This document shows, one piece after another, positions 1 to 15,492 of a DNA stretch of 64,000 nucleotides. Each line of letters starts with the position of its first letter. Within the stretch, counting starts at the first letter, position 1. Position numbers and translations under genes: made by a program. The notes under the pieces are model-generated. The model did not search any database and was not told where the DNA came from. It saw nothing but the letters and a program-made list of their open reading frames with translations. Source of the stretch: a virus. Where the stretch lies: positions 1 to 64,000 of the IMG/VR virus record IMGVR_UViG_3300035698_004199; one strand, written 5' to 3'.

Positions 1-71
1 AAATCACAGGGGAAATGGTGGTTGGTGGTAATCTAGTAGTGAAAGAAACCCCGCAGTCTGAAAAGAACTAA
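1..71 (+). CDS. C-terminal end of a hexapeptide beta-helix protein (partial)
   Basis: The window opens inside a reading frame that ends at TAA 69-71. Its last residues (ITGEMV.GG..V.. then TPQSEKN) match almost exactly the C-terminus of the complete hexapeptide-repeat protein that follows (EITGEMVIDG...TPQSEKN). It is therefore the tail of a tandem paralog whose body lies upstream of the window. Only about 22 residues are visible, so no function beyond shared family membership can be given. Confidence 0.75.
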   Translation, partial: ITGEMVVGGNLVVKETPQSEKN

Positions 72-187: not shown

Positions 188-1123
188 ATGAGTGATCTAA
201 GAGATGCAGTTATCAAATTGGCAAAAGAGACTCCTGTTTTACGGAAGCATTTAGTACCTTTGATTAAGCAGGCTGCTCAACTTAAATATGAGCTAACTGA
301 TATTAGAAAAGGCAGACTTACTCGTATCAAGGCTTTAAGAAACCTTCCAGGTAGTGTTAAGATAGGAGACCTTGGTGGTTGGGTAGAGTCTGAAAAGAAT
401 TTAAGTCAAGCGGGTACCTGTTGGGTTTATGAGGATGCCTCAGTAAGTGGTGATGCACAAATTGCAGGTAGTGCTATAGTTTCTGATAACGCCCAAGTTT
501 TAGGTAATGCAGTTGTTTACCAAGAAGCTCAGATTTCTCGTTACGCCCAGGTTTATGGTAGTGCTGAAGTTTCCGGTAAAGCCAAAGTTTTTGGGGGTGC
601 CAAGGTTTATGATAATGCCTTGGTCTCTGGTAATGCCAAAGTCTATGACGATGCCGAGGTATTTAGTAATGCCGAGGTGTTTGGTAAAGCTCAGGTCTTT
701 GATTATGCCGAGGTGTTTGGTAAAGCTCAGGTATCTGACAATGCCGAGGTATTTGGTAAAGCCATAGTCTATGATAATGCCAAGGTATCTGACGATGCCA
801 AGGTATTAGGTAAAGCTCGGGTCTTTGATTATGCCGAGGTTAAAGACGAAGCCAAAGTTTTTGGGGGTGCCAAGGTCTTTGGCAATGCCGTAGTTCGTAG
901 CACTGCCTCTGTCTTTGACAACGCCAAGATATATGGTAGTGCATGGGTCCTTGGGAGGGCCAAGGTATCTGACAATGCCGAGGTATTTGGTAATGCCTTG
1001 GTCTATGATAAAGCCATAGTGTCTGGTAATGCCCATGTTTATGGCGTGGCTGAAATCACAGGGGAAATGGTGATTGATGGTAATCAATTAGTGTCTAAGA
1101 CGCCACAGTCTGAAAAGAACTAA
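188..1123 (+). CDS. Hexapeptide-repeat left-handed beta-helix protein with N-terminal KLA/PELR tag
   Basis: The start is ATG 188, preceded by AAGGTGGAG; a GTG at 152 lies in the leader and lacks a ribosome site. Residues 4-26 carry the shared tag (IKLAKETPVLRKHLVPL). Next comes a cap with GDLGGWVESE.NLSQ.G.CWVY, typical of phage and bacterial YdcK-like proteins. Residues about 80-300 are some 35 imperfect hexapeptides of the type (V/A)SGNAKVYDNA, expected to fold as a left-handed beta-helix. The family often trimerises, and enzyme activity is usually unproven. A tandem paralog lies just upstream. A surface or structural role is plausible but is inference. Antisense reading frames here come only from the repetitive codons. 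Confidence 0.8.
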   Translation: MSDLRDAVIKLAKETPVLRKHLVPLIKQAAQLKYELTDIRKGRLTRIKALRNLPGSVKIGDLGGWVESEKNLSQAGTCWVYEDASVSGDAQIAGSAIVSDNAQVLGNAVVYQEAQISRYAQVYGSAEVSGKAKVFGGAKVYDNALVSGNAKVYDDAEVFSNAEVFGKAQVFDYAEVFGKAQVSDNAEVFGKAIVYDNAKVSDDAKVLGKARVFDYAEVKDEAKVFGGAKVFGNAVVRSTASVFDNAKIYGSAWVLGRAKVSDNAEVFGNALVYDKAIVSGNAHVYGVAEITGEMVIDGNQLVSKTPQSEKN

Positions 1124-1135
1124 GGGGGGGGTTTC

Positions 1136-1903
1136 ATGACCACGTCCAAAAGACTTGCAAAACGTTATCTATCAGCACTTACTAAAGGGCGTAGTTTAGT
1201 ACAGGAACAGGACAGGTGGTATGTGGAAGGGGACTCTTGGAGTATCAAGGATCTTTTGAAAAGGCAAGGCTTTAGGTGGGATTCCCATTCAAAGCGTTGG
1301 TGGATCTCTGAAAGGCTTTATAAGACAAGAATTAAGGATGTACAAGAGCTGATCAGTCCAGATACAAGTAGTGTTGAGGCAGAAGATTTAGGTAAGGGCA
1401 TCAGGACTGAAGTTAAGCAAAACAGGGTTTATCTTGTGGGGCCTACTTTTGAGATCAAAGATGATTTGAAGAGATTAGGTTTCCGTTGGGATCCAGGAGC
1501 TAGGGCTTGGTACACAAAGCTATTAGATTGGTCAAGGGTGCGAAATCGTGTGCTTAATCTTGTGGATACTATTAAGACTCGCCAAGAGATTGAAAGAGAG
1601 AGATTGAAGCAAAAAAGAGATGAAGATGCTCAGTGGGAGCAAGATGAAGCAGACATCAGGGAACTTGATGATGATAATTATAATTATGAAAAATACCTAA
1701 AAAGTTGGGAGCAAGATGTTAAACAGACGCGCAGTCCTTCTACTAAGCAGATAAATTACGCTCTTTCATTGTTCCGTAAAACAACTATTGGGGAGTGGTC
1801 TGATATAGGCTATCAGCACATACCTTCAAGAGATGACTTGGAACGGACGACCTCAGCACAGGTTTCCCATATTATAGATTACTTGCAGGAGTACGCAGCT
1901 TGA
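1136..1903 (+). CDS. Protein with two DUF5710-like domains and RLAKRYL tag
   Basis: A 255-aa protein starting at ATG 1136 after a run of eight G. Residues 6-12 are the RLAKRYL tag shared with nearby genes. Two small domains follow (about 27-72 and 96-145), each with the pattern IKD.LKR.GFRWD....W...., like the DUF5710-type module (KD..K.LGARWD...K.WYV) often attached to DNA-processing proteins. A charged, probably coiled linker (about 146-200) leads to a C-terminal unit beginning STKQINYALSLF and ending with a helix, a small module also seen at the ends of replication-type proteins. The stop TGA overlaps the next ATG (TGATG), so the two genes are probably translationally coupled. The function is unknown; nucleic-acid binding is a guess from the family. 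Confidence 0.7.
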   Translation: MTTSKRLAKRYLSALTKGRSLVQEQDRWYVEGDSWSIKDLLKRQGFRWDSHSKRWWISERLYKTRIKDVQELISPDTSSVEAEDLGKGIRTEVKQNRVYLVGPTFEIKDDLKRLGFRWDPGARAWYTKLLDWSRVRNRVLNLVDTIKTRQEIERERLKQKRDEDAQWEQDEADIRELDDDNYNYEKYLKSWEQDVKQTRSPSTKQINYALSLFRKTTIGEWSDIGYQHIPSRDDLERTTSAQVSHIIDYLQEYAA

Positions 1904-3459
1904 TGTGTACCATCCAAAGACTTGCTTCTCGTTATCTATCAGCTGGGTTGACTCTTTTACATGATCACAATGTTGTGCGTGTAAAAGGGAACGCTTATCC
2001 CATCAAAGACGATTTGAAGAGATTGGGTTTCCGTTGGGATGGTAAAGAGTGGTTTATCCCTGAATCTTTATATCGTGTGAAAGAGCGGGCTATCAAGCAG
2101 TTAACAAACCCTCCAAGAAAATCTGAGAGCTTTTCTAATGGCGTGACAGCAATCCCAAAAGGTGATAGTATTTATGTTATGGGGAATGTCTTCTTTATCA
2201 AAGACGATTTGAAGAGATTGGGTTTCCGTTGGGATCCAGGAGCTAAGGCTTGGTTTGTGCGGGAGGACATGTGGGATCGCGTCAGGGGTGCTGTAGAGGT
2301 GCTTTCAAAAAAAGTACCTCCAAGGCTTGATGGCAGGGCAATACGGAAGCAGCGTAGAAATACTGTGGTGCCAGACTATGTGTATCCTATTTCAAAGACA
2401 GCCATTCCTTCTACCAAACAGCACAAACAGAACATAGAGAATGGCCGTGGTGTTGATCCCGGCGGTGATGCTGTTACTCTTGTTGAGTATGGAGAAGTAA
2501 CACCTGAATGGGCTATGAAAGTTATAGAGAAGCTAAAGGATCCTGATGCTGCTTTTGCTTTAGCAACACATGGCGGCTACGCCCCTAAAGAATGGGCTAT
2601 GAAGATTATAGAGAAGAGCCGTGTAGGTGACCCAGCAGACTTAGCTTTCAGGCTAGCTGTTGAGCTAGGTGCCTCTATGCAATGGGTTAAGCGGGTTGTT
2701 GAGAGAGTCAGAGTAGGCAACCCTGCAGCGATAGCAGACATGCTTTTACGTAGGGGGCAAGTTACAAAGGAATGGGCCATGAAAATTAAAGGAAGATCAC
2801 ACAGCAGTCAGCGTCTAGCATCCCGTTATTTAGAGTCCCTTCGGACAGCACGTCTGAATTTGGTACAAGACCATACTGTTGTGCGTATTGAGGGTGACAC
2901 ATATCCTATCAAGGATGATCTGAAAGACTTGGGTTTCCGTTGGGACCCATCAGTTAAACAGTGGGTAATCCCACAGCCTAGGTTTCACCTGAAAGAGCGT
3001 GTTATCAGGCAGCTAATAGAACCTCCCAAAAGACCTAGCTTTATGTCTGAGAAGTTGTCTGATGAAGTGACAGCGGTCCTTAGAGGCGATAATGTTCATC
3101 TTGTAGGAAACACTTTTCATGTCAAAGATAACTTGAAGAGGTTGGGTTTCCGTTGGGATGGTGGTGCTAAAGCTTGGTATGTTAAATTTGACAACTGGAA
3201 GCGAGTACAGGATGCTGTAGAGGCATTAATAAAAAGCACACCAACACCGAGCCGTGTGGTTAGTAGACCCAGTGGAGGTGGTGGTACGCAGAAGCAGATA
3301 AACTATGCTTTGAGGCTTTTAGAAAGGTTAGGTAGTCATGGGTGGCATGACTCTGATTGGGGGCAGGGCTCTCACATGCCTACAAGACGTGAAGTTGAGA
3401 ACATGTCTGGGCGTGACCTATCTGAGATGATTGATATGATGAGGGGCGAGTTTATATAG
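1903..3459 (+). CDS. Duplicated/fused protein with four DUF5710-like domains and two RLASRYL tags
   Basis: A 518-aa paralog of the preceding gene, starting at ATG 1903 inside the upstream stop (a TTG at 1900 is ignored). It reads as two such proteins joined. The first half is an RLASRYL tag (about 5-11) plus two IKDDLKRLGFRWD domains. A middle block (about 190-300) has short repeats built on EWAMKIIEK and DPA.LAF.LA. A second RLASRYL tag (near residue 302), two more DUF5710-like domains, a GGGG linker and the TQKQINYALRLL C-terminal module complete it. The internal tag suggests an in-frame fusion or tandem duplication. No catalytic motif is visible. Confidence 0.7.
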   Translation: MCTIQRLASRYLSAGLTLLHDHNVVRVKGNAYPIKDDLKRLGFRWDGKEWFIPESLYRVKERAIKQLTNPPRKSESFSNGVTAIPKGDSIYVMGNVFFIKDDLKRLGFRWDPGAKAWFVREDMWDRVRGAVEVLSKKVPPRLDGRAIRKQRRNTVVPDYVYPISKTAIPSTKQHKQNIENGRGVDPGGDAVTLVEYGEVTPEWAMKVIEKLKDPDAAFALATHGGYAPKEWAMKIIEKSRVGDPADLAFRLAVELGASMQWVKRVVERVRVGNPAAIADMLLRRGQVTKEWAMKIKGRSHSSQRLASRYLESLRTARLNLVQDHTVVRIEGDTYPIKDDLKDLGFRWDPSVKQWVIPQPRFHLKERVIRQLIEPPKRPSFMSEKLSDEVTAVLRGDNVHLVGNTFHVKDNLKRLGFRWDGGAKAWYVKFDNWKRVQDAVEALIKSTPTPSRVVSRPSGGGGTQKQINYALRLLERLGSHGWHDSDWGQGSHMPTRREVENMSGRDLSEMIDMMRGEFI

Positions 3460-3473
3460 GCGGGGAGATTCAC

Positions 3474-3550
3474 ACCGTTCATACAAACTTACGTAAAGTT
3501 ATGTATGTGGATTGGTTGCCCAACCCAACCCCAGAATCACATGGCACCCT
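3474..3550 (-). mobile_element. Solo right end of the TnpB element (77 bp)
   Basis: This is identical over 77 bp to 7541-7617, the tnpB stop-codon region plus right end of the intact element. It keeps the last few tnpB codons and stop, a GGTT-GCCC-AACC mini-hairpin and the bulged hairpin at 3480-3507 (CATACAAACTT / AAGTTATGTATG). Identity stops abruptly at both edges. The right edge abuts the conserved leader at 3551. It is a relic or stand-alone end of an IS200/IS605-type element, and possibly the 3' part of a guide RNA if transcribed leftward. Confidence 0.8.
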
Positions 3551-3620
3551 CGTTAGTTTTGTTATCAGAATCCTTTTAGTAGTTAGTGTTTTACTTTTTT
3601 GCCTTGAGGAGAATTTAAAA
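3551..3620 (+). promoter_or_regulatory. Conserved 5' leader, copy 2
   Basis: This is the second copy of the leader at 117-187, ending in the ribosome site GAGGAGA before ATG 3621. Its homology to copy 1 begins exactly where the 77-bp solo IS end stops, so the IS end inserted at the edge of the leader or replaced what lay upstream. Confidence 0.5.
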
Positions 3621-3932
3621 ATGGCATTTCACAGCACAAATTTTGGTTCCTTTTCCAGAGGACTTAGACCTTTTATAGACAAAGACGGGTATGTTCCAGA
3701 AGATGGAGATCGTCAGTCTCTGTTTATTTTTGAGGGCGAGCAGATGACAAACAGTGATTGGCGCTATTTTGTAATGAAGGCTGTAAGTGCTACTGAAGAG
3801 GCTGTGGAAGATCTTAAGCACTGGAGAAAAGGATCCGTTGACCTAAAAGACGCAGTTATCAAGTTGGCTAGAGAGAACCCTGAGTTGCGGAAGCATTTGG
3901 TTCCTCTAATTAGGCAGGCTAAAAAAGAGTAG
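3621..3932 (+). CDS. Small protein with C-terminal KLA/PELR tag
   Basis: A 103-aa protein starting at ATG 3621 with GAGGAGA upstream; the in-frame extension to 3501 runs through the IS end and leader and is not real. Residues 1-70 are unrecognised and slightly acidic. The last 30 residues hold the tag DAVIKLARENPELRKHLVPL, nearly identical to the N-terminal tag of the beta-helix protein at 188-1123. The tag is thus at the opposite end of an unrelated protein, which argues that it is a transferable targeting or binding peptide. Confidence 0.65.
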   Translation: MAFHSTNFGSFSRGLRPFIDKDGYVPEDGDRQSLFIFEGEQMTNSDWRYFVMKAVSATEEAVEDLKHWRKGSVDLKDAVIKLARENPELRKHLVPLIRQAKKE

Positions 3933-3940
3933 TCTACTAT

Positions 3941-4381
3941 ATGCCACGTAAACGCCGTAAAAACCCCTTCCCTTCAACATTATTTAAGAAAGCCTATTCT
4001 GAACCATCGCCCGATGGTTTGTGGTGGGTTTATGTCCTTGAATCCGTCAAACCCATACTAGCCCGTTCCTATGGGCACACCTATGTAGGTTCCACAAACA
4101 ACCCTGTGCGTCGCTACAAGCAGCATATGGGCGTTTTGCCCGGAGGTGCCAGAGCTACTAAGAGCCATAGGCCGTGGCGCATAGCAGCCATATTTGGGCC
4201 TTACAGCAACAGGTCTGAAGGTTGCAAGGCTGAGTATGCTCTAAAGAGGCGGCGGGGCTTAGGGCGTGTTAATTGGAAACCAGAAAACTCAATCTGGTGC
4301 AGGGGCTTAGGGATAGAGGACCCTCGTGTAGTAGAAGGACGCCGGTTGCTTGAGGGCTTTCAATCGTTAGACGCATTATAG
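3941..4381 (+). CDS. GIY-YIG endonuclease
   Basis: A 146-aa protein eight bases after the preceding stop. It has the GIY-YIG signature in SLX1/UvrC-like single-domain form: WVYVLES at 29-35, TYVGSTNNP..R..QH at 47-62 with the catalytic-type Arg, and a Glu at about 98 in KAEYALKRR as metal ligand. The N-terminus is basic (PRKRRKNPF). Such proteins are nicking or structure-specific DNA endonucleases; in phages they can be free-standing homing enzymes or repair/recombination nucleases. No intron is evident nearby, so homing into a tag-gene cluster is only a possibility. A terminator follows immediately. Confidence 0.85.
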   Translation: MPRKRRKNPFPSTLFKKAYSEPSPDGLWWVYVLESVKPILARSYGHTYVGSTNNPVRRYKQHMGVLPGGARATKSHRPWRIAAIFGPYSNRSEGCKAEYALKRRRGLGRVNWKPENSIWCRGLGIEDPRVVEGRRLLEGFQSLDAL

Positions 4382-4410
4382 AACACGGGAATCTAGGAAC
4401 GTGTTTTTTA
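4382..4410 (+). terminator. Rho-independent terminator after GIY-YIG gene
   Basis: The stem AACACG / CGTGTT closes a 12-nt loop and runs into TTTTTTA, directly after the stop codon at 4379-4381. Confidence 0.7.
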
Positions 4411-4427
4411 TTGAAGGAATTGTAAAT

Positions 4428-4580
4428 ATGAACGCTCTGAATAAACTGGCTGCTCGTTATCTTGAAGCATCAGGATTTGATAATATAAAGAACTACTTGA
4501 AGGATAAAGCAGACCAAAGGCTTGCCTCCCGTTATATGGAAGCAGCAGATAAGGCAGGCAGCAACTTTATACTTCGCTAA
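4428..4580 (+). CDS. 50-aa double-tag protein
   Basis: A small gene with ATG 4428 and stop TAA 4578-4580, preceded by TGAAGGAATT. The product is essentially two copies of the RLASRYL-type tag: LNKLAARYLEAS at residues 4-15 and QRLASRYMEAADKAGS near residues 30-45, joined by a short Lys-rich helix. It follows a terminator and precedes a virion-type gene. That a protein can consist almost only of the tag supports the tag being functional. Role unknown. Confidence 0.65.
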   Translation: MNALNKLAARYLEASGFDNIKNYLKDKADQRLASRYMEAADKAGSNFILR

Positions 4581-4590
4581 GGATTAAAAA

Positions 4591-5274
4591 ATGGCATTGA
4601 CCAGACAACAGTCAGTAGTTACTTTTTCCACTAATTCTGGTGGGCAGGAATACCTGTTTGATGTGCTGGTAGATTCTTTTGGGGCTGTCTCTGTAAGAAA
4701 TGTCAGGAGTCCTTTGGGGCTCATCATGGACCCGTACACTACAATGCCTAACATAGTAGTTACAGATATGCAAGAAGCCAAGCTTATGGTAGCCCAGCTT
4801 ATGTCTGAAACGACTGTTACATCCGGCACTATAACCTTTGCAGGAGAGACCAGCCAAACTCAGGCTATTGCTTCTGGGCTACTAAACAATACAAACTATA
4901 GAGTGGCTTACACCACTACGGATGGGATGCTCCTAAATACTACAGGGCAGACGACTACAGCTTTCACAGTGAATGCGGCGTCCGCTTATGGTACTGTTGC
5001 AGTCCCTATAACAGTAGATTATACCATATTAGTAGCTACACAGCAGACTAGTGGTTATAGTGGCACAGCTTCTATCATACAGGCAGATGCGGGTGCTTCA
5101 ACCGTAACCTTCCCTACGGCTATGGTTACAGAGAATTACAGTGTGGTTTTATCTCCGAACGGCTTTATGCCAGTTTATTTGAGTGCAAAGAGCAAGACGG
5201 GTTTTACAATTCAATTAGGCTATACCATGGAAGTTGGGGAAACCGCTACCGTGGGTTTTGATGTGTTTGTTTGA
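4591..5274 (+). CDS. Beta-rich virion surface or fibre-like protein
   Basis: A 227-aa protein rich in Thr, Ser, Val and Ala. After a short N-terminal part (1-85) it has two similar beta-sandwich-like segments, about 86-150 and 155-227. The second (AGASTVTFPTAM...SVVLSPNG...SKTGFTIQL) resembles the small C-terminal lectin-like domain (gp53/H-type lectin-like) of phage tail fibres. The start is ATG 4591 with CTAAGGA upstream. It is probably a decoration or receptor-binding protein; no catalytic motif is seen. The family assignment rests on pattern only. Confidence 0.55.
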   Translation: MALTRQQSVVTFSTNSGGQEYLFDVLVDSFGAVSVRNVRSPLGLIMDPYTTMPNIVVTDMQEAKLMVAQLMSETTVTSGTITFAGETSQTQAIASGLLNNTNYRVAYTTTDGMLLNTTGQTTTAFTVNAASAYGTVAVPITVDYTILVATQQTSGYSGTASIIQADAGASTVTFPTAMVTENYSVVLSPNGFMPVYLSAKSKTGFTIQLGYTMEVGETATVGFDVFV

Positions 5275-5293: not shown

Positions 5294-6808
5294 ATGGAAA
5301 AAGTATCTAGGACTGAGTTAGTCAAGTTGGCAAAAGAGATTCCTGAGATGCGGAAGCATTTAGTACCTTTACTAATGAGCAAGTCCGCTATGGAGTTTGA
5401 CACACCAGAAGCACTTAAGAAATATCTGAAAGAACACCCAGGGGCAGATAAGTCTTTACATAAGGTTAAGAAACAAGAAGCCCCAAAGAAGGTACCTGCT
5501 AAAGAAGTTCCGAAGGGAAAGTGGGGGCAAGACTTTAATGGTTCAGATGGTTATACAGGAGAGCGCCTGCCCAAAGATGCTATAGATGATATGACCCAAA
5601 TAGGGGGTGTTGAGTCCCAGGTTAATGATTGGGTTGAAAAACTTGGATGGCATGTGCCTATCGAAGCAGGAAAACAGTACATCCAGGAAACAGGTGCCTA
5701 CGACGAAGAGGAGCTAGAAGATAAGGACCAAGATTGGGTCAATGAATTCACACTGTGGCTTGCAGCTGGGGATCAGCGGAAGGAAGAACAGCAGGCGGAA
5801 GAAGGCTCCTATGAGAGCCCCTCAAAAAAAGCAACCTTACTTAAGTTGGCAAAAGAGATTCCTTCTTTGAGGGCATTGGTTGTTCCACTACTTAGGGAAG
5901 CATCTGATCCTAAGTATCAGAACTATGTGAAAAAGAAACGCGACAAGGGTGAGAAGCCTTTGGACCAGAAGGCTTGGGAAAGCAAGGTTTTGAACAAAGG
6001 CGTGAAAGACAAGCAGATCAATCTGCCTTTCAAACCCAAGAAAGAAGAAGTTCCTGAAAAGAAAGTTCCTGAAAAGAAGGTTCCCTCTGAGAAAGACAGT
6101 AAGACAGTCGCCCTGTCCCCAGCGGCTAACAAATCTTTGGTAAGTGCTTTGGAGGGTTTTAATACATCTGGTGCTTGGGAACATGTGATTAGTTTCGCTC
6201 TTTCTGGCAAACAACCCATTGAGAAGAAACATGCCCAGAAGGTGGTGGATGACATAGACTCCTATTTGGAGAATTGGGACAGTACAGCAAAGTCTTACGG
6301 TTGGTCAGCCAAGGATAAGAAGAATCTAATTAAGGCCAAAACTATTCTGGAAAAAGGTCTGGGGGGAAAGAAAGCCCCTGTAGAAGAGAAGAAACAGGAA
6401 GTGCCAAAGAAAGCCCCTGCAAAGAACAAACCTAAAACAACGGGCACGTGGAATAAATGGCTTGGAGGCAAGCAGAACCTTAACACGATAGCTATTAACA
6501 ACCAGCTTGAAAATACAGACATGGACGAAGTAAAGGAATTTGTAAAGTCTAAGCCTTGGCCCGCCAAAGGGAATATTTCAGATGCTCAGTTAATGCAGAA
6601 GTTCCTTCAGAATGCCACACCTGAAACCCGTGAGCGGATGAAAGGGCTTAGCCCCGTAGAATTCAAGGAAATTATGGCTGCTATCATGGATGATGAAGAA
6701 GGTAATGGCAAGAAAGCCTCTGATACTGTTCTCCGTTCTGCATTGATTAAACTGGCCCATGCTAATCCAGAACTGAGATCTCAGTTGCTGCCACTAATCA
6801 AAAGATAA
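5294..6808 (+). CDS. Lys/Glu/Pro-rich protein with three KLA/PELR tags
   Basis: A 504-aa protein starting at ATG 5294 with AGAGGAG upstream; the extension to 5234 overlaps the previous gene. Three tag copies lie at the N-terminus (VKLAKEIPEMRKHLVPL), near residue 180-203 (LKLAKEIPSLRALVVPL) and at the C-terminus (IKLAHANPELRSQLLPL). The tags divide the protein into two blocks. Each block has low-complexity linkers (KKVPEKKVPEKK and similar) around small helical domains. The N-terminal block also has FDTPEALKKYLKEHPGADK. The lysine-rich linkers suit a DNA-associated or scaffold-like internal virion protein, but this is inference. Confidence 0.65.
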   Translation: MEKVSRTELVKLAKEIPEMRKHLVPLLMSKSAMEFDTPEALKKYLKEHPGADKSLHKVKKQEAPKKVPAKEVPKGKWGQDFNGSDGYTGERLPKDAIDDMTQIGGVESQVNDWVEKLGWHVPIEAGKQYIQETGAYDEEELEDKDQDWVNEFTLWLAAGDQRKEEQQAEEGSYESPSKKATLLKLAKEIPSLRALVVPLLREASDPKYQNYVKKKRDKGEKPLDQKAWESKVLNKGVKDKQINLPFKPKKEEVPEKKVPEKKVPSEKDSKTVALSPAANKSLVSALEGFNTSGAWEHVISFALSGKQPIEKKHAQKVVDDIDSYLENWDSTAKSYGWSAKDKKNLIKAKTILEKGLGGKKAPVEEKKQEVPKKAPAKNKPKTTGTWNKWLGGKQNLNTIAINNQLENTDMDEVKEFVKSKPWPAKGNISDAQLMQKFLQNATPETRERMKGLSPVEFKEIMAAIMDDEEGNGKKASDTVLRSALIKLAHANPELRSQLLPLIKR

Positions 6809-6814
6809 GAAGTC

Positions 6815-7315
6815 TCAAGACTTTACAACGCCCAATATATTCAGCAGCTTTTCAGTGACCGCCCGTACTACAAAGTTTTTAGCAGCCTTCCGGCGTAACC
6901 GGGCTGGTACTTGAACTTTTAATTCATGTGTATTTGTTGTCCCGTAGCAAGCTACCAGAATAGCTACATAGACTTCACCTGGGATTGAGTCCTTAGGGTT
7001 TGCTGGGTCTACTTGGTTCAAGCTGCCTGTAATCCCTACGCTTATAAAGTCTATGGGTTTGGAAAGGTTGGTCCAAGCTGCATAAGCCATGGCATTTGCA
7101 GTCTCTTGTGAATAGACACTGTACTTGTCTATGGTGTCAGCAGGCACCCCAAACCGAATCTTAGAAAGGTTGCTGTAAGTGATGTGGCTTTCAGCCAATA
7201 CAAAGCTGGATCCAGGGATGTCAGTTATAGCAGAAGCCAAGGCCCCACCGGTGCAAGATTCTACTGTGTAAATCTGAAACCTGTATTTTCTCAAACCTGT
7301 AATAACTCTTTTCAT
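6815..7315 (-). CDS. pncC: PncC/CinA C-terminal-type nicotinamide-nucleotide amidohydrolase
   Basis: A 166-aa protein on the - strand. The second ATG (7315) is preferred because GGAGG sits just upstream, inside the codons of the longer form from 7333. Family motifs are clear: VESCTGG with the nucleophilic Ser at 20, PGSS.VL....TYSN..K...GVP.D.I, YSQETANAMA, and a GITGSL / PGEVYVAI core. The family deamidates nicotinamide mononucleotide to nicotinic acid mononucleotide in the pyridine nucleotide cycle. A phage copy suggests support of NAD recycling, for example after ligase use of NAD. It is convergent with the upstream + strand genes, and a 17-nt inverted repeat lies just upstream of its start. 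Confidence 0.88.
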   Translation of the reverse strand: MKRVITGLRKYRFQIYTVESCTGGALASAITDIPGSSFVLAESHITYSNLSKIRFGVPADTIDKYSVYSQETANAMAYAAWTNLSKPIDFISVGITGSLNQVDPANPKDSIPGEVYVAILVACYGTTNTHELKVQVPARLRRKAAKNFVVRAVTEKLLNILGVVKS

Positions 7316-7335
7316 CTTAAAGCCTCCGTTCATAC

Positions 7336-7422: not shown

Positions 7423-7563
7423 TTGGATTCTTCAGATCAGTCTTATTTTTGGTTGTCGCACAAAGGGCAGTTAGTAGAACTAGTGGGGTTAGAGCTTGCT
7501 GCTTTGGATGCTATCCGTTCTGTTTTGGATCAAGGGCAAAACCGTTCATACAAACTTACGTAA
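7423..7563 (+). CDS. Possible small gene truncated by the TnpB element
   Basis: Frame TTG 7423 to TAA 7561 (46 aa) reads DSSDQSYFWLSHKGQLVELV then LELAALDAIRSVLDQGQ, which looks like a real helical protein. The overlapping frame from ATG 7404 is Cys/Phe-rich and unconvincing. AAGGGGG lies eight bases before the TTG. The last seven codons come from the IS right end starting at 7541, so the original 3' end was probably cut off by the insertion. No continuation is recognisable on the far side of the element. Function unknown. Confidence 0.35.
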   Translation: MDSSDQSYFWLSHKGQLVELVGLELAALDAIRSVLDQGQNRSYKLT

Positions 7564-7617
7564 AGTTATGTATGTGGATTGGTTGCCCAACCCAACCCCA
7601 GAATCACATGGCACCCT
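7541..7617 (-). ncRNA. Putative omega-RNA 3' scaffold / IS right end
   Basis: In TnpB systems the guide RNA is transcribed from the tnpB 3' end through the right end, and the adjacent flank acts as guide. Here the tnpB stop (7604-7606) lies inside this conserved 77-bp segment. The segment folds into a GGTT-GCCC-AACC hairpin and the bulged CATACAAACTT hairpin, and ends at 7541. The predicted guide would be the - strand just below 7541. Transcription is inferred, not seen. Confidence 0.5.
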
Positions 7618-8863
7618 TAAAAAATAAGAAATTACCATTACTGAGTTCTTGCTTCATTGAGATTTGCCTAACCAACCTAAATTGATCTGGTCTTACGACC
7701 CCTCCACAAGCGTTTAAAGTCTCCGGCAAACTGGCGGCGACTAAAATGTTTATAGAAGCATTGAGATCCGCGTTGATCTCAAAACCACAAGATTGACAGC
7801 TAAATTGAGCTTGGTTCTGTCTGTTTGCCTTTTCAGTGTGCCCACAAGACGAGCACCTTTGACTCGTATAGGCGGGGTTCACTGAAAGGATCTTACAGCC
7901 ATATAAGACTCCTTTATATTCAAGAAGCCTACGAAACTCACCCAATGAAGCGTCCAACATCACCCTGTTAAGCCCCCGCTTATGGGAACCTCCACCTTTA
8001 GTCATGTTCTTAATCTTCAAATCCTCAAGCACAATTAGACCGTGGCTTTTGGTCAACTGAGTTGAAGCTTTGTGCAAGTGATCCTTGCGAAGACTGCAAA
8101 CTTGACTATGTGTTTTTGCTAACAGAACCTTTACTTTCAATCTATTCCTCGATCCCTTTGTTTTTCTTGCTAAACTCCTTTGTAGCTTTTTTAGTTTTCT
8201 TTGGCTTTTAGCCAATGCCTTGGGGTTTTCAATAACTGTCCCATCAGATAGTGTAGCCAAACGAGAAACCCCCATGTCTAGACCTACTGCAGACAACCCA
8301 TTGCTAGAAATAGTCATTGCATCATCTGGACAGATTACTGAAACAAACCACCTATCATTTTGCTCAGACACTGTAATTTGTGCCGGTTTTCCAATAGATA
8401 GATAACCTCTTTCATTAGGCATTAGACGTACTTTGCCAATACGAGGTAGTTTTACAAAACACTCAGTTACAGTTATTGATCCTGAAAGTCTAAAACCACC
8501 AATCTTTAGTTTCTTGGATTTGAAACGGGGATATTTAGACCGGCCTTTAAGAAAACCTTTGAAAGCCACCTCTAAATCACGTAAGCCTTCATGCGGTGCA
8601 CATTTACTTACATCATACATCCAAGGGACTCCGCCAGTCTCTTTTGGCTGTTTCTTAAGTAGATTTAACTCACGGTGTAGAGAATAAGCATTCGGCCAAC
8701 CATCCCATTTTTTAGGTTTGTCAAGCAGCAGCCATTCTTGATAAGCTGCTTTGCAGCGTGACAAGCCCCAATTGTAGGCCCAACGGGACGCCCCTGCGTG
8801 TTGCCGCAAGGTTTCTTTTTGCCGTTTGGTGGACCGTAGTTCTACTTTGTGGGCCAGTTTCAC
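7604..8863 (-). CDS. tnpB: TnpB RNA-guided nuclease
   Basis: A 419-aa protein with GTG start at 8863 overlapping the TAG of the upstream small gene (TAGTG). An N-terminal helical/HTH region precedes a complete RuvC-type nuclease: Asp196 in GLDMG, Glu280 in IVLED and Asp366 in NADLN. It also has the zinc-finger pairs CSSC (337-340) and CQSC (356-359) and the family motif VNPAYTSQRC. All catalytic residues are present, so it is plausibly active as an RNA-guided DNA endonuclease that helps the element persist. The C-terminus runs slightly into the conserved right end. Length is normal for the family. Confidence 0.95.
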   Translation of the reverse strand: MKLAHKVELRSTKRQKETLRQHAGASRWAYNWGLSRCKAAYQEWLLLDKPKKWDGWPNAYSLHRELNLLKKQPKETGGVPWMYDVSKCAPHEGLRDLEVAFKGFLKGRSKYPRFKSKKLKIGGFRLSGSITVTECFVKLPRIGKVRLMPNERGYLSIGKPAQITVSEQNDRWFVSVICPDDAMTISSNGLSAVGLDMGVSRLATLSDGTVIENPKALAKSQRKLKKLQRSLARKTKGSRNRLKVKVLLAKTHSQVCSLRKDHLHKASTQLTKSHGLIVLEDLKIKNMTKGGGSHKRGLNRVMLDASLGEFRRLLEYKGVLYGCKILSVNPAYTSQRCSSCGHTEKANRQNQAQFSCQSCGFEINADLNASINILVAASLPETLNACGGVVRPDQFRLVRQISMKQELSNGNFLFFKGAM

Positions 8864-9115: not shown

Positions 9116-10831
9116 TTAGCAACCCTTTACATAAACATCAAAAGAGGCTCCTGTGGGTGTAATGGTTAGCTGACGTGTTGCAGACGAGTAGCTCAGTGTG
9201 ACATAATAGTTTCCAGAAGAGTCTACGGGCCAACCTTGAAGGGGTTGATTGCCCCTAGAGAGGACGCTATTGCCAACACGAGTAAGACTCTCAGTATCAT
9301 TAACAACACCTATAGCTAGGCTTGTAGGGCCTCCAGATTCAGTAATCTTAGAAACGGCTGGATTAGGATAAGTGCTTCCAAGTAAATCACCACCAGCGGC
9401 CCCGGTAGGCACTCTACTATCTGCTAACCTTGCATCCGTAGTGGTTACATAAGTGTTTAGAGCAGTTGGGGCACCAAAAGATCCCGCTAAAGCTGCTTTT
9501 TGATCAGAAGTAGGAATAAAAGTATGATTATAAGCCAATTCGTGTGCTGCTCGTTGTCCTGTAACAGTTGCAACCGCAACCCCGTTAATTTGTGCGACAG
9601 TGGGGTTTGGGTACGTGCTTCCAAGCAGATCACCACCAGCAGCACCAGAAGGAGCCCTGCTATCTGACATTCTCGCATCAGTGGTCGTAACAAAGGTGTT
9701 TCCCGCCCCGGGGGCACCAAAAGACCCCGCTAAAGCTGCTTTTTGATCAGAAGTAGGGATTAAAGTGTGGTTATAAGCCAATTCGTGAGCAGTTCGTTGT
9801 CCTGTGACAGTTGCGACTGCAACCCCGTTAATTTGTGCAACTGTGGGGTTTGGATAAGTACTTCCAAGCAGATCCCCTCCGGCAGCACCAGAAGGACTGC
9901 GTGGGTTGCTCATTCTCGCATCAGTGGTCGTAACAAAGGTGTTTCCAGCCCCCGGAGTACCGAAAGACCCCGCTAGTGCAGCTTTTTGATCAGAAGTAGG
10001 GATTAAAGTGTGGTTATAAGCCAATTCGTGTGCTGTTCGTTGCCCTGTGACAGTTGCGACTGCAACCCCGTTAATTTGTGCGACAGTGGGGTTTGGGTAA
10101 GTACTTCCAAGCAGATCACCACCAGCAGCACCAGAAGGAGCCCTGCCATTTGTCATTCTTGCGTCTGTGGACGTAACATAGGTGTTTGCAGCCCCCGGAG
10201 CACCAAAAGATCCCGCTAGTGCAGCCTTTTGATCTGAAGTAGGAATTAAAGTGTGATTATAGGTTAATTCGTGTGCAGTACGTTGCCCAGCAACAGTTGC
10301 AGCCGCAACTCCGCTTACAAAAGCTATAACAGGGTTTGGATAGGTGCTTCCAAGCAGATCCCCCCCAGCAGCTCCTACAGGAGCCCTGCCATTTGTCATT
10401 CTTGTGTCCGAGGAAGTTACATATGGATTTATTGCGCTCGGGGCACCGGAAGTTCCTGCTAAAGCAGCTTTTTGTACAGTAGACGGGATGTCTACATGTA
10501 GGTAGGCCACTTCGTGTGCTGCTCTTTGCCCTGCAACGGTTGCAGCAGCAACACCACCTACAAGGGCTACTGTTGGGGTGGGGTAATGCCCACTTAAGTC
10601 ACCAGCAGCAGCCCCAGTCGTGGGCCTGCTGTCTGTCATACGAGCATCGCTGTTTGTAACATACTTGTTAGCAGCACTGGGAGCACCATCAGTGCCAACC
10701 AGTGCACCCTTTTCGTTTGCACTTGGAAGTGTGGCATGGGCAAAGGCAGCTTCATGTGCTGTACGTTGTCCTGCAACAGCAGCAGTACCATCTATAAGAT
10801 CTACCGTAGGGTCTGGGTAAGCACCGCCCAA
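9116..10831 (-). CDS. Tail-fibre repeat protein, probably 5'-truncated
   Basis: 571 aa from TTG 10831, the only start-like codon in the open frame (which extends to 10876 and reads ADPAGPAGGD before the TTG). It has six tandem repeats of about 81 aa plus part of a seventh. Each repeat opens with GGDLLGSTYPNPTVA, a motif common in tail fibres and surface repeat proteins, and continues with GQRTAHELAYNHT..P, QKAALAGSFGAP and TDARM. A unique C-terminal domain of about 75 residues follows (GYYVTL-like beta strands). Collagen-like residues before the TTG and the lack of an ATG suggest that the N-terminal part is missing. It is opposite to the structural genes and could be a silent or exchangeable fibre cassette. 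Confidence 0.65.
   Translation of the reverse strand: MGGAYPDPTVDLIDGTAAVAGQRTAHEAAFAHATLPSANEKGALVGTDGAPSAANKYVTNSDARMTDSRPTTGAAAGDLSGHYPTPTVALVGGVAAATVAGQRAAHEVAYLHVDIPSTVQKAALAGTSGAPSAINPYVTSSDTRMTNGRAPVGAAGGDLLGSTYPNPVIAFVSGVAAATVAGQRTAHELTYNHTLIPTSDQKAALAGSFGAPGAANTYVTSTDARMTNGRAPSGAAGGDLLGSTYPNPTVAQINGVAVATVTGQRTAHELAYNHTLIPTSDQKAALAGSFGTPGAGNTFVTTTDARMSNPRSPSGAAGGDLLGSTYPNPTVAQINGVAVATVTGQRTAHELAYNHTLIPTSDQKAALAGSFGAPGAGNTFVTTTDARMSDSRAPSGAAGGDLLGSTYPNPTVAQINGVAVATVTGQRAAHELAYNHTFIPTSDQKAALAGSFGAPTALNTYVTTTDARLADSRVPTGAAGGDLLGSTYPNPAVSKITESGGPTSLAIGVVNDTESLTRVGNSVLSRGNQPLQGWPVDSSGNYYVTLSYSSATRQLTITPTGASFDVYVKGC
9116..10831 (-). repeat. Tandem 243-bp repeats in fibre gene
   Basis: Units of about 243 bp (81 codons) begin at each GGDLLGSTYPNP-type motif. 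Units 4 and 5 are nearly identical at the DNA level, which suggests recent unequal recombination. The outer units have diverged. Confidence 0.8.
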
Positions 10832-13925: not shown

Positions 13926-14486
13926 ATGAAAGAAGCAATTGTTAAGTGTCTCTGTGCTTTTCTAAAGTTAGCAGATCTAAACCTGGAACTAAAGCAAGGG
14001 GATGAAGTATCCTTGACTATGGGTGAGGTTATGAGTTCAAAAGACTTGAAGCGGGCTATTCGTTTCAGGGCTGTAACCATTACATATAGAAATGTATGTA
14101 AAGAACAGAGGCTCCCTTCTGAAGAAGTGAAGGCCCCTAAAGTGGTGCCACCCGTAATGAAGCCCCATCCCGTGGCAGCCCCTGTAAAAGCACCGGCAGT
14201 ACAACCACAGCCTTCAGTTATCCCAAACCTGGTACAGGAATTGAAAAAAGAAATGATGTCCGGGTTAAAGCAATTGTTACAAGAGCTGGCACCCCAAGTG
14301 ATTGCAGGCAAAACGACACAAGTTTCACAGGTTTCTCAGGATACTCCAATGTTTATTCCTAAAGGGATGGTGTCTAAGGACACTGCTTCTGTGAAAGTGA
14401 AAACAGAACAGTCTGATGGGGGCTCTTTGGATAATGCAGCTGCGGTTTTGAAGAAAGCCCGCAAGGGAGGTAAGAAAAATGACTAA
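13926..14486 (+). CDS. Neck/tail accessory protein with Pro-rich linker
   Basis: A 186-aa protein with ATG 13926 behind GAGGTAGTGAAT. The N-terminal domain (1-65) is helical/beta. A Pro/Ala/Val-rich linker (about 68-100) leads to a helix (LVQELKKEMMSGLKQLLQEL). The C-terminal segment (MFIPKGMVSKD...GGSLDNAAAVLKKARKGGKK) has a form common to uncharacterised phage structural proteins. The 3' end overlaps the actin-like gene by 8 bases (ATGACTAA). Function unknown. Confidence 0.55.
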   Translation: MKEAIVKCLCAFLKLADLNLELKQGDEVSLTMGEVMSSKDLKRAIRFRAVTITYRNVCKEQRLPSEEVKAPKVVPPVMKPHPVAAPVKAPAVQPQPSVIPNLVQELKKEMMSGLKQLLQELAPQVIAGKTTQVSQVSQDTPMFIPKGMVSKDTASVKVKTEQSDGGSLDNAAAVLKKARKGGKKND

Positions 14487-15492
14487 GGAAAAAACTTTGA
14501 CAGGATGCTCTATAGATGTGGGCACCATGAATTTTGTTTCTGCTCGTAGGACAGCCAATGGGATTGAGACTAAACGTATGCGGGACGTGTTTTTGGATCT
14601 CCCGGCTAATGCAAAGAAGATGCTCAAACTTTCAGGGACCTCTTTTGTAGACCGTGGTGATGAGGTGTTAATCCTTGGGGATGCTGCTATGGAGATGGCT
14701 AATGTTTTTGGTAGGGAGCCCAGACGGCCTCTGTCAGCAGGTATTATTTCAGCTTCAGAAGCAGACAGTCTTGAAGTGCTTGGACTGTTGGTCAAAAGTG
14801 TGTTGGGTGAGCCAAAGAAGAAAGGCGAGGTTTGTTACTTTTCTGTACCGGCTGCTCCTATAGACGATCCAGGAAAAGATATTGTTTATCACAAGGGTGT
14901 GTTTGAACGCATTATAAAGGAATGTGGGTACACACCGTTTGCAGGAAATGAGGCTATGGCACTCATCTATTCAGAGGCTGCAGCGGAAGGTTTCTCTGGA
15001 TTATCGTTGAGCTACGGGTGCGGAATGACCAACGCTGCACTTGCAATAAATACTATTGAGGGCTTGACTTTTGCAGTAGGACGGGGCGGTGACTTTATAG
15101 ATCGTGGGGCAGCCCAGTCTGTAGGGTCTACACAGGCTAGAGTATGTGCAATCAAAGAAGCGGGGTTTGATCTGAATAACCCAGATGGCCGTGTCCAGGA
15201 GGCCCTAGCTTTCTATTACAAGGCTCTTATAGAGTATACACTAGATAACATAGTAGCTCGCTTCAAGTCCATTGAAGGCCAGTTTGCGCTGTCTAAGCCC
15301 ATACCACTAATAATTTCAGGAGGTACGAGTTTGGCAGGTGGTTTTATGGAGTTCTTCGGTAAGGTGTTTGAGGAGCGTAGAAAGAAGTTTCCTATTGACA
15401 TATCTGAAATCAGGCAGGCTAACGAGCCACTAAATGCCGTGGCTTATGGGCTACTGGTTCAAGCAATGCAAGAAGGAGAAGATGATGACTGA
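14479..15492 (+). CDS. Actin/ParM-fold ATPase
   Basis: A 337-aa protein with the actin-superfamily layout. Phosphate-1 loop is IDVGTMNFV (12-20). Strand motif YFSVPAAP is at 120-127. Connect-1 is NEAMALIYSEAAA (157-169). Phosphate-2-like loop is LSLSYGCGMTNA (175-186). GGDFIDRGAA is at 203-212. The adenosine loop is IISGGTSLAGG (278-288). The usual Asp in phosphate-2 (D.G.GT) appears replaced by Ser, so ATPase activity may be altered. ParM/MreB-type relatives form filaments for DNA segregation or cell organisation. Here the gene overlaps neck genes on both sides, which is an odd setting. It could move virions or DNA, or act as an assembly factor. Confidence 0.75.
   Translation: MTKEKTLTGCSIDVGTMNFVSARRTANGIETKRMRDVFLDLPANAKKMLKLSGTSFVDRGDEVLILGDAAMEMANVFGREPRRPLSAGIISASEADSLEVLGLLVKSVLGEPKKKGEVCYFSVPAAPIDDPGKDIVYHKGVFERIIKECGYTPFAGNEAMALIYSEAAAEGFSGLSLSYGCGMTNAALAINTIEGLTFAVGRGGDFIDRGAAQSVGSTQARVCAIKEAGFDLNNPDGRVQEALAFYYKALIEYTLDNIVARFKSIEGQFALSKPIPLIISGGTSLAGGFMEFFGKVFEERRKKFPIDISEIRQANEPLNAVAYGLLVQAMQEGEDDD

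Follow-up and report, generated by a model that had tools for sequence, protein, structure and literature searches.

What does a short basic peptide do when it recurs on the proteins of one viral gene cluster? The question is raised by the window, a 64-kb stretch that opens a 74-kb virus record: after a cluster of tagged genes at 1-6.8 kb come first a transposon and then a long same-strand tail/baseplate module. The original prediction reported a tag, RLA.RYL, in five copies, and translation of the window DNA recovers all five (RLAKRYL, RLASRYL twice, KLAARYL and RLASRYM), where 0.035 matches would be expected by chance in the 47 called genes. Strictly, three of the five fit RLA.RYL; KLAARYL and RLASRYM, both in a 50-aa product, deviate. 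No sixth copy was found in the window or the remainder of the 74-kb record. The copies and the genes that hold or adjoin them are as follows.

1136-1903, plus strand: 255-aa protein with N-terminal RLAKRYL, two DUF5710-like units and a C-terminal helical region (open reading frame; PF18974 match)
1151-1171, plus strand: tag copy 1, RLAKRYL, N-terminal in the 255-aa protein (translation)
1903-3459, plus strand: 518-aa protein, built as tag and two DUF5710 units, linker, then tag, two DUF5710 units and a C-terminal domain (open reading frame; PF18974)
1918-1938, plus strand: tag copy 2, RLASRYL, N-terminal in the 518-aa protein (translation)
2812-2832, plus strand: tag copy 3, RLASRYL, internal in the 518-aa protein, at the head of the second duplicated unit (translation)
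4428-4580, plus strand: 50-aa protein, tag-linker-tag, with two predicted helices and no globular domain (Shine-Dalgarno sequence, codon usage, model)
4443-4463, plus strand: tag copy 4, KLAARYL, in the 50-aa product (translation)
4518-4538, plus strand: tag copy 5, RLASRYM, in the 50-aa product (translation)
4591-5274, plus strand: 227-aa untagged protein (the 4591 family), downstream of the 50-aa gene

Matches to the DUF5710 profile (PF18974) reach 31.7 and 51.8 bits, above the curated cut-off of 26.5, and the 518-aa gene begins at an ATG (1903) that overlaps the stop codon of the gene upstream (TGATG). Within the 518-aa protein, the two halves share 56% identity across 145 aa (68% in DNA), and judged by this likeness the protein is an internal duplication of a unit made of the tag and two DUF5710-like repeats. 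Thus, the internal copy that had been described exists at 2812, but it is really the N-terminal tag of the second unit. Modelling of the 255-aa protein places a low-confidence helix (residues 3-16, pLDDT below 50) in front of confidently predicted beta-alpha folded units, as expected of an appendage. A structure search with this model matched nothing significant, and direct homologue searches found no close homologues of the 50-aa, 255-aa and 518-aa products.

Profiling of RLA-type sites yields the consensus [AS]x[RK][VLI]AxR[YFHW]Lx[AS], of which, on sequence comparison, the window tag is a local form: a nine-residue basic, amphipathic helical peptide that recurs in no fewer than seven further phage contigs, all of them large (107-536 kb). 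The profile was scanned over the window record, LR745208 (an uncultured 485-kb phage reached, like many other contigs, through a second tag of the cluster, KLA/PELR), G001 (536 kb, the window's nearest relative), G002 (436 kb) and G004 (249 kb), the last three being largely held out, as they gave only 20-kb pieces to profile building. The original prediction depended on the motif recurring beyond chance in related phages, and it does so: the five genomes or records contain 45 matches, where shuffled proteins give about 0.4 and reversed ones 0. The profile matched none of 428 control genes, drawn from parts of phage G, phiKZ, Tunturi_5, Myrna and LR745206, so that the tag is absent from the examined parts of the cultured relatives Tunturi_5, phage G and Myrna; all tagged phages that we found are uncultured. 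Three further contigs reached through the tag alone, G009, G010 and G011, hold 5, 4 and 2 profile matches, respectively. They surfaced from nucleotide patterns for the heptapeptide run over all viral contigs, a search whose matches were mostly chance, in wrong frames or in unrelated families. Capsid, RNase-R-like (RNB) and PhoH proteins appeared as carriers in the first profile run and were discarded as false matches, the motif there sitting inside folds, and matches where a topoisomerase-like domain begins (VAAKYQxKKKV) may have been inherited with that domain instead of being independent tags. The tag strings matched nothing in the papers searched, a set outside which preprints and most subscription papers lie.

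The proteins that carry the tag are otherwise unrelated, and it sits at their N-termini, C-termini and domain borders. Recognised carriers include ART-PolyVal (ADP-ribosyltransferase), HAD_SAK, Peptidase_C39_2 (C39-like), InPase (pyrophosphatase) and 2'-5' RNA ligase domains, together with HExxH proteins (zinc peptidases), a weak ferritin-like match and many proteins without annotation. ART, metallopeptidase and InPase domains are among those listed for virion-packaged polyvalent proteins that are thought to be injected (PMC5512222). Once recognised false matches are removed, 26 of 42 tags lie within 45 residues of a terminus, where 12.6 would be expected; as called, 13 are N-terminal, 13 C-terminal and 16 internal, some of the last being an artefact of start sites called too far upstream. 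Of 28 tagged genes, 25 lie on the major coding strand, a modest bias since that strand carries 61-72% of coding. The tags have a mean charge of +2.7 and a hydrophobic moment of 0.70 (0.30 in random stretches). Two Ferritin/Dps-like proteins (G001:506984-507478 and L058:10408-10854), of which one carries a tag, RVASRYMK, at its C-terminus and the other lies near the capsid gene, could be DNA-binding head cargo.

Such placement might also be expected if the peptide were a helical cap or linker that had spread as genes duplicated and domains were shuffled, with no dedicated partner. Duplication does explain the window's internal copy, and long multi-domain proteins carry copies at their domain borders, but the carriers are unrelated to one another, identical side chains recur at both ends and the tag is wholly absent from the control phages, and we regard this explanation as improbable.

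The second tag of the cluster, KLA/PELR, is carried by three neighbouring genes.

188-1123, plus strand: beta-solenoid (YdcK-repeat) protein with an N-terminal KLA tag
3501-3932, plus strand: protein with a C-terminal KLA/PELR tag; ATG 3621 has the better Shine-Dalgarno sequence
5294-6808, plus strand: protein with three KLA/PELR tags and a YLKEHPGADKS module

Both tags are basic and helical, occur N-terminally, C-terminally or internally, lie in the same cluster and can be followed by YLKEHPxAD. They differ in that KLA/PELR spans about 25 residues around a conserved proline; its core, RLA..xPxLR..LLPLL, is not matched by the RLA-type tag, which lacks the proline/PELR part. The view that the two are distinct yet share a cluster is therefore borne out, and the RLA-type tag recurs across related huge phages. 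KLA is absent from the RLA-tagged G009 and G010; for G009, a 416-kb phage whose capsid protein is 84% identical to that of LR745208, the search included G001, G002, G007 and G019 as positive controls. Many phages encode both tags, and the protein L036:3556-4536 combines them. In the window, L043, L045 and L167 the YLKEHPxAD module comes after KLA; in a single case, G011, it comes after the RLA-type tag. The two tags are thus separable, and the same module behind either suggests that they are interchangeable labels of one address rather than of two destinations. Of the earlier idea that two addressing signals coexist, the coexistence stands, whereas the address would appear to be shared.

The surroundings of these genes show traces of rearrangement. 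Window positions 1-71 are an 85% identical second copy of the end of the beta-solenoid gene (1053-1123), which seems to have been tandemly duplicated, and a 61-bp leader before two KLA-tagged genes (115-175 and 3548-3608, 85% identical) may represent either a common promoter or a remnant of duplication. A perfect 77-bp duplicate occurs at 3474-3550 and 7541-7617; since the second copy adjoins a transposase gene (7604-8863), the first may be a left-over transposon end amid the tagged genes. Beyond the cluster, on the minus strand, lie a frame at 6815-7333 that by eye resembles the CinA C-terminal (NMN amidase) family and a 571-aa, probably fibre-like protein with long near-identical repeats (GAAGGDLLGSTYPNPTVAQINGVAVATV...) at 9116-10831. 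Within the tail module, the protein at 14479-15492 (plus strand) matches Volactin (PF25216, E 1.2e-67), an actin-like family, and has a 65% identical homologue in LR745208.

Where tagged genes lie relative to head genes bears more directly on function. The capsid, protease and portal genes take their names from homologues in Tunturi_5 and phage G. All five genomes that have both portal and head protease genes (LR745208, G001, G002, G004 and G009) place a tagged gene between the two, with the qualification that the G002 scores are about 17, slightly below the cut of 18 used elsewhere, and that the scored G001 site is the topoisomerase-like one, with more tag-like sites visible by eye. In T4, this portal-protease interval is occupied by small core genes. 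G009 and G010, found via the tag alone, encode the same capsid family. The tag is not carried by the capsid, protease, portal or scaffold-like proteins themselves; the scaffold-like protein, which adjoins the capsid gene, has a net charge of -41 to -62. Also beside the capsid gene, in LR745208, is a 1229-aa frame (L024:14525-18214) that by eye resembles repeated homing-endonuclease-type segments together with a methylase-like part.

Proximity to the capsid gene itself is variable. Tagged genes within 20 kb of it number 4 of 6 in G001 and 4 of 14 in LR745208; many in LR745208 are distant from head genes, as are those of G002 except one near the other contig end. This scatter would suit a tag that addresses another intracellular assembly, such as a replication compartment, a membrane or a protein hub, and not the virion, and nucleus-forming jumbo phages are known to import proteins selectively into a compartment (PMC8191949). 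We consider this unlikely, since the recognised cargo is of the injected-effector type and not replication enzymes, and the portal-protease interval holds a tagged gene in every genome in which it could be located. Import into a phage nucleus in particular gained no support: a phmmer search with the phiKZ shell protein, gp54 (chimallin), found no relative in four tagged genomes, a search that distant homologues could escape.

By analogy with the T4 and P1 signals, we favor, with somewhat better than even confidence, the reading that the tag is a capsid-loading label in a lineage of huge phages. It would mark unrelated proteins for incorporation into the prohead, possibly by binding the acidic scaffold-like protein encoded next to the capsid gene, a partner proposed from its charge, and the marked proteins would ride in the virion and probably be delivered to the next host with the DNA. 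KLA/PELR would be a second label into the same route, and any later cleavage of the tag would be a further, presumed step. A head-protease homologue is encoded; behind the tag, no constant motif resembling the T4 or SPN3US cleavage sites is seen. The motif, its recurrence and modular placement, the kinds of cargo, the links to one capsid lineage and to the portal-protease slot, and the absence from controls are observed here. A broader proposition is more tentative, and we would put it a little short of even: within one capsid lineage, huge phages would share a modular system of two or more interchangeable helical labels, placed at either protein end or at domain junctions, by which a varying set of effector enzymes is loaded into the head.

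Several known systems resemble this arrangement. In T4, a short N-terminal peptide sends IPIII, IPII, IPI and Alt to the prohead core (PMC9026906). Like the tag, that capsid-targeting sequence is a short segment common to otherwise unrelated proteins; the tag differs in being also C-terminal and internal, with several copies in some proteins. Because it is not restricted to the N-terminus, the tag as tested falls outside the T4 capsid-targeting family in the strict sense, and it is proposed to work like a member. To our knowledge no sequence match links the two. The N-terminal 30 residues of P1 DarB suffice to bring a reporter to the capsid (PMC9024508); that signal concerns one protein, with no shared short motif reported in the sections consulted, whereas the tag is found on many. 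Polyvalent proteins of phages and conjugative elements have the same ART-PolyVal, metallopeptidase and InPase domains, but the part of their description consulted notes no common short tag (PMC5512222), and many tagged proteins have only one or two domains. For the inner head proteins of SPN3US and phiKZ, N-terminal segments are inferred to target ejection proteins (PMC5694885). These phages are giant too, but their propeptides mostly have at least 100 residues and are cleaved; the phiKZ stretches examined contain no match to the tag.

Cleavage in these systems raises another explanation, namely that the tag is a processing or turnover signal cut by a head or host protease. The T4 capsid-targeting peptides are themselves cleaved (PMC9026906), and the tag is located at termini and domain borders. 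Yet no invariant cleavage residue is present, the conserved positions fitting a single helical face plus two basic residues, and several tags end their protein, so that cutting there would remove almost nothing. We give this explanation little weight and return to loading as the favored function.

It remains to place the 50-aa protein. Its gene has a Shine-Dalgarno sequence (AAGGA) 9 nt upstream of the ATG at 4428 and a codon score of 0.20 per codon (real genes: mean 0.19, sd 0.08), which no wrong-frame stretch attains. With a good ribosome binding site and gene-like codon usage, it looks truly coding and is very probably expressed. A single-sequence model gives helices at residues 3-15 and 17-42 (mean pLDDT 74). 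The claim that the protein is made almost only of the tag proved overstated, as the two copies span about 20 of its 50 residues. In six relatives that have the 4591 family, a protein of about 104 aa with a tag-like N-terminus (e.g., MARSVARRWV) is encoded upstream of it: directly in G001, LR745208, L046 and L052, one gene further upstream in G002, and recognisable among overlapping gene calls in G004. The slot directly before the 4591 gene is thus filled by the 50-aa gene in the window and by the ~104-aa gene in four relatives; the products share no homology apart from the tag.

Given these upstream genes in six relatives, the 50-aa protein is just as likely to be tag-only cargo, a core component or a remnant as the linker or competitor first suggested. 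Under the loading model it would most simply be a small tag-only core component, or else a shortened form of the relatives' ~104-aa tagged protein. That it is a decayed, functionless remnant of that gene is possible but rather doubtful: the identical place upstream of the 4591 family, the tag-like start of the ~104-aa genes and the failure of searches to find a homologue of the 50-aa product itself would all agree with decay, but the Shine-Dalgarno sequence is intact, codon usage is gene-like, start and stop are clean, and simple decay would not predict a second full copy of the tag.

If the tag is a loading signal, the proteins that huge, mostly uncultured phages bring into their hosts could be listed from sequence only, many of them otherwise without annotation, and if the label system holds true, which proteins an uncultured phage injects could be predicted from its labels alone. 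Capsid targeting would then widen from the N-terminal peptide of T4 and P1 to a short motif at either end of a protein, and the tag would offer a small handle on how large capsids select their contents.
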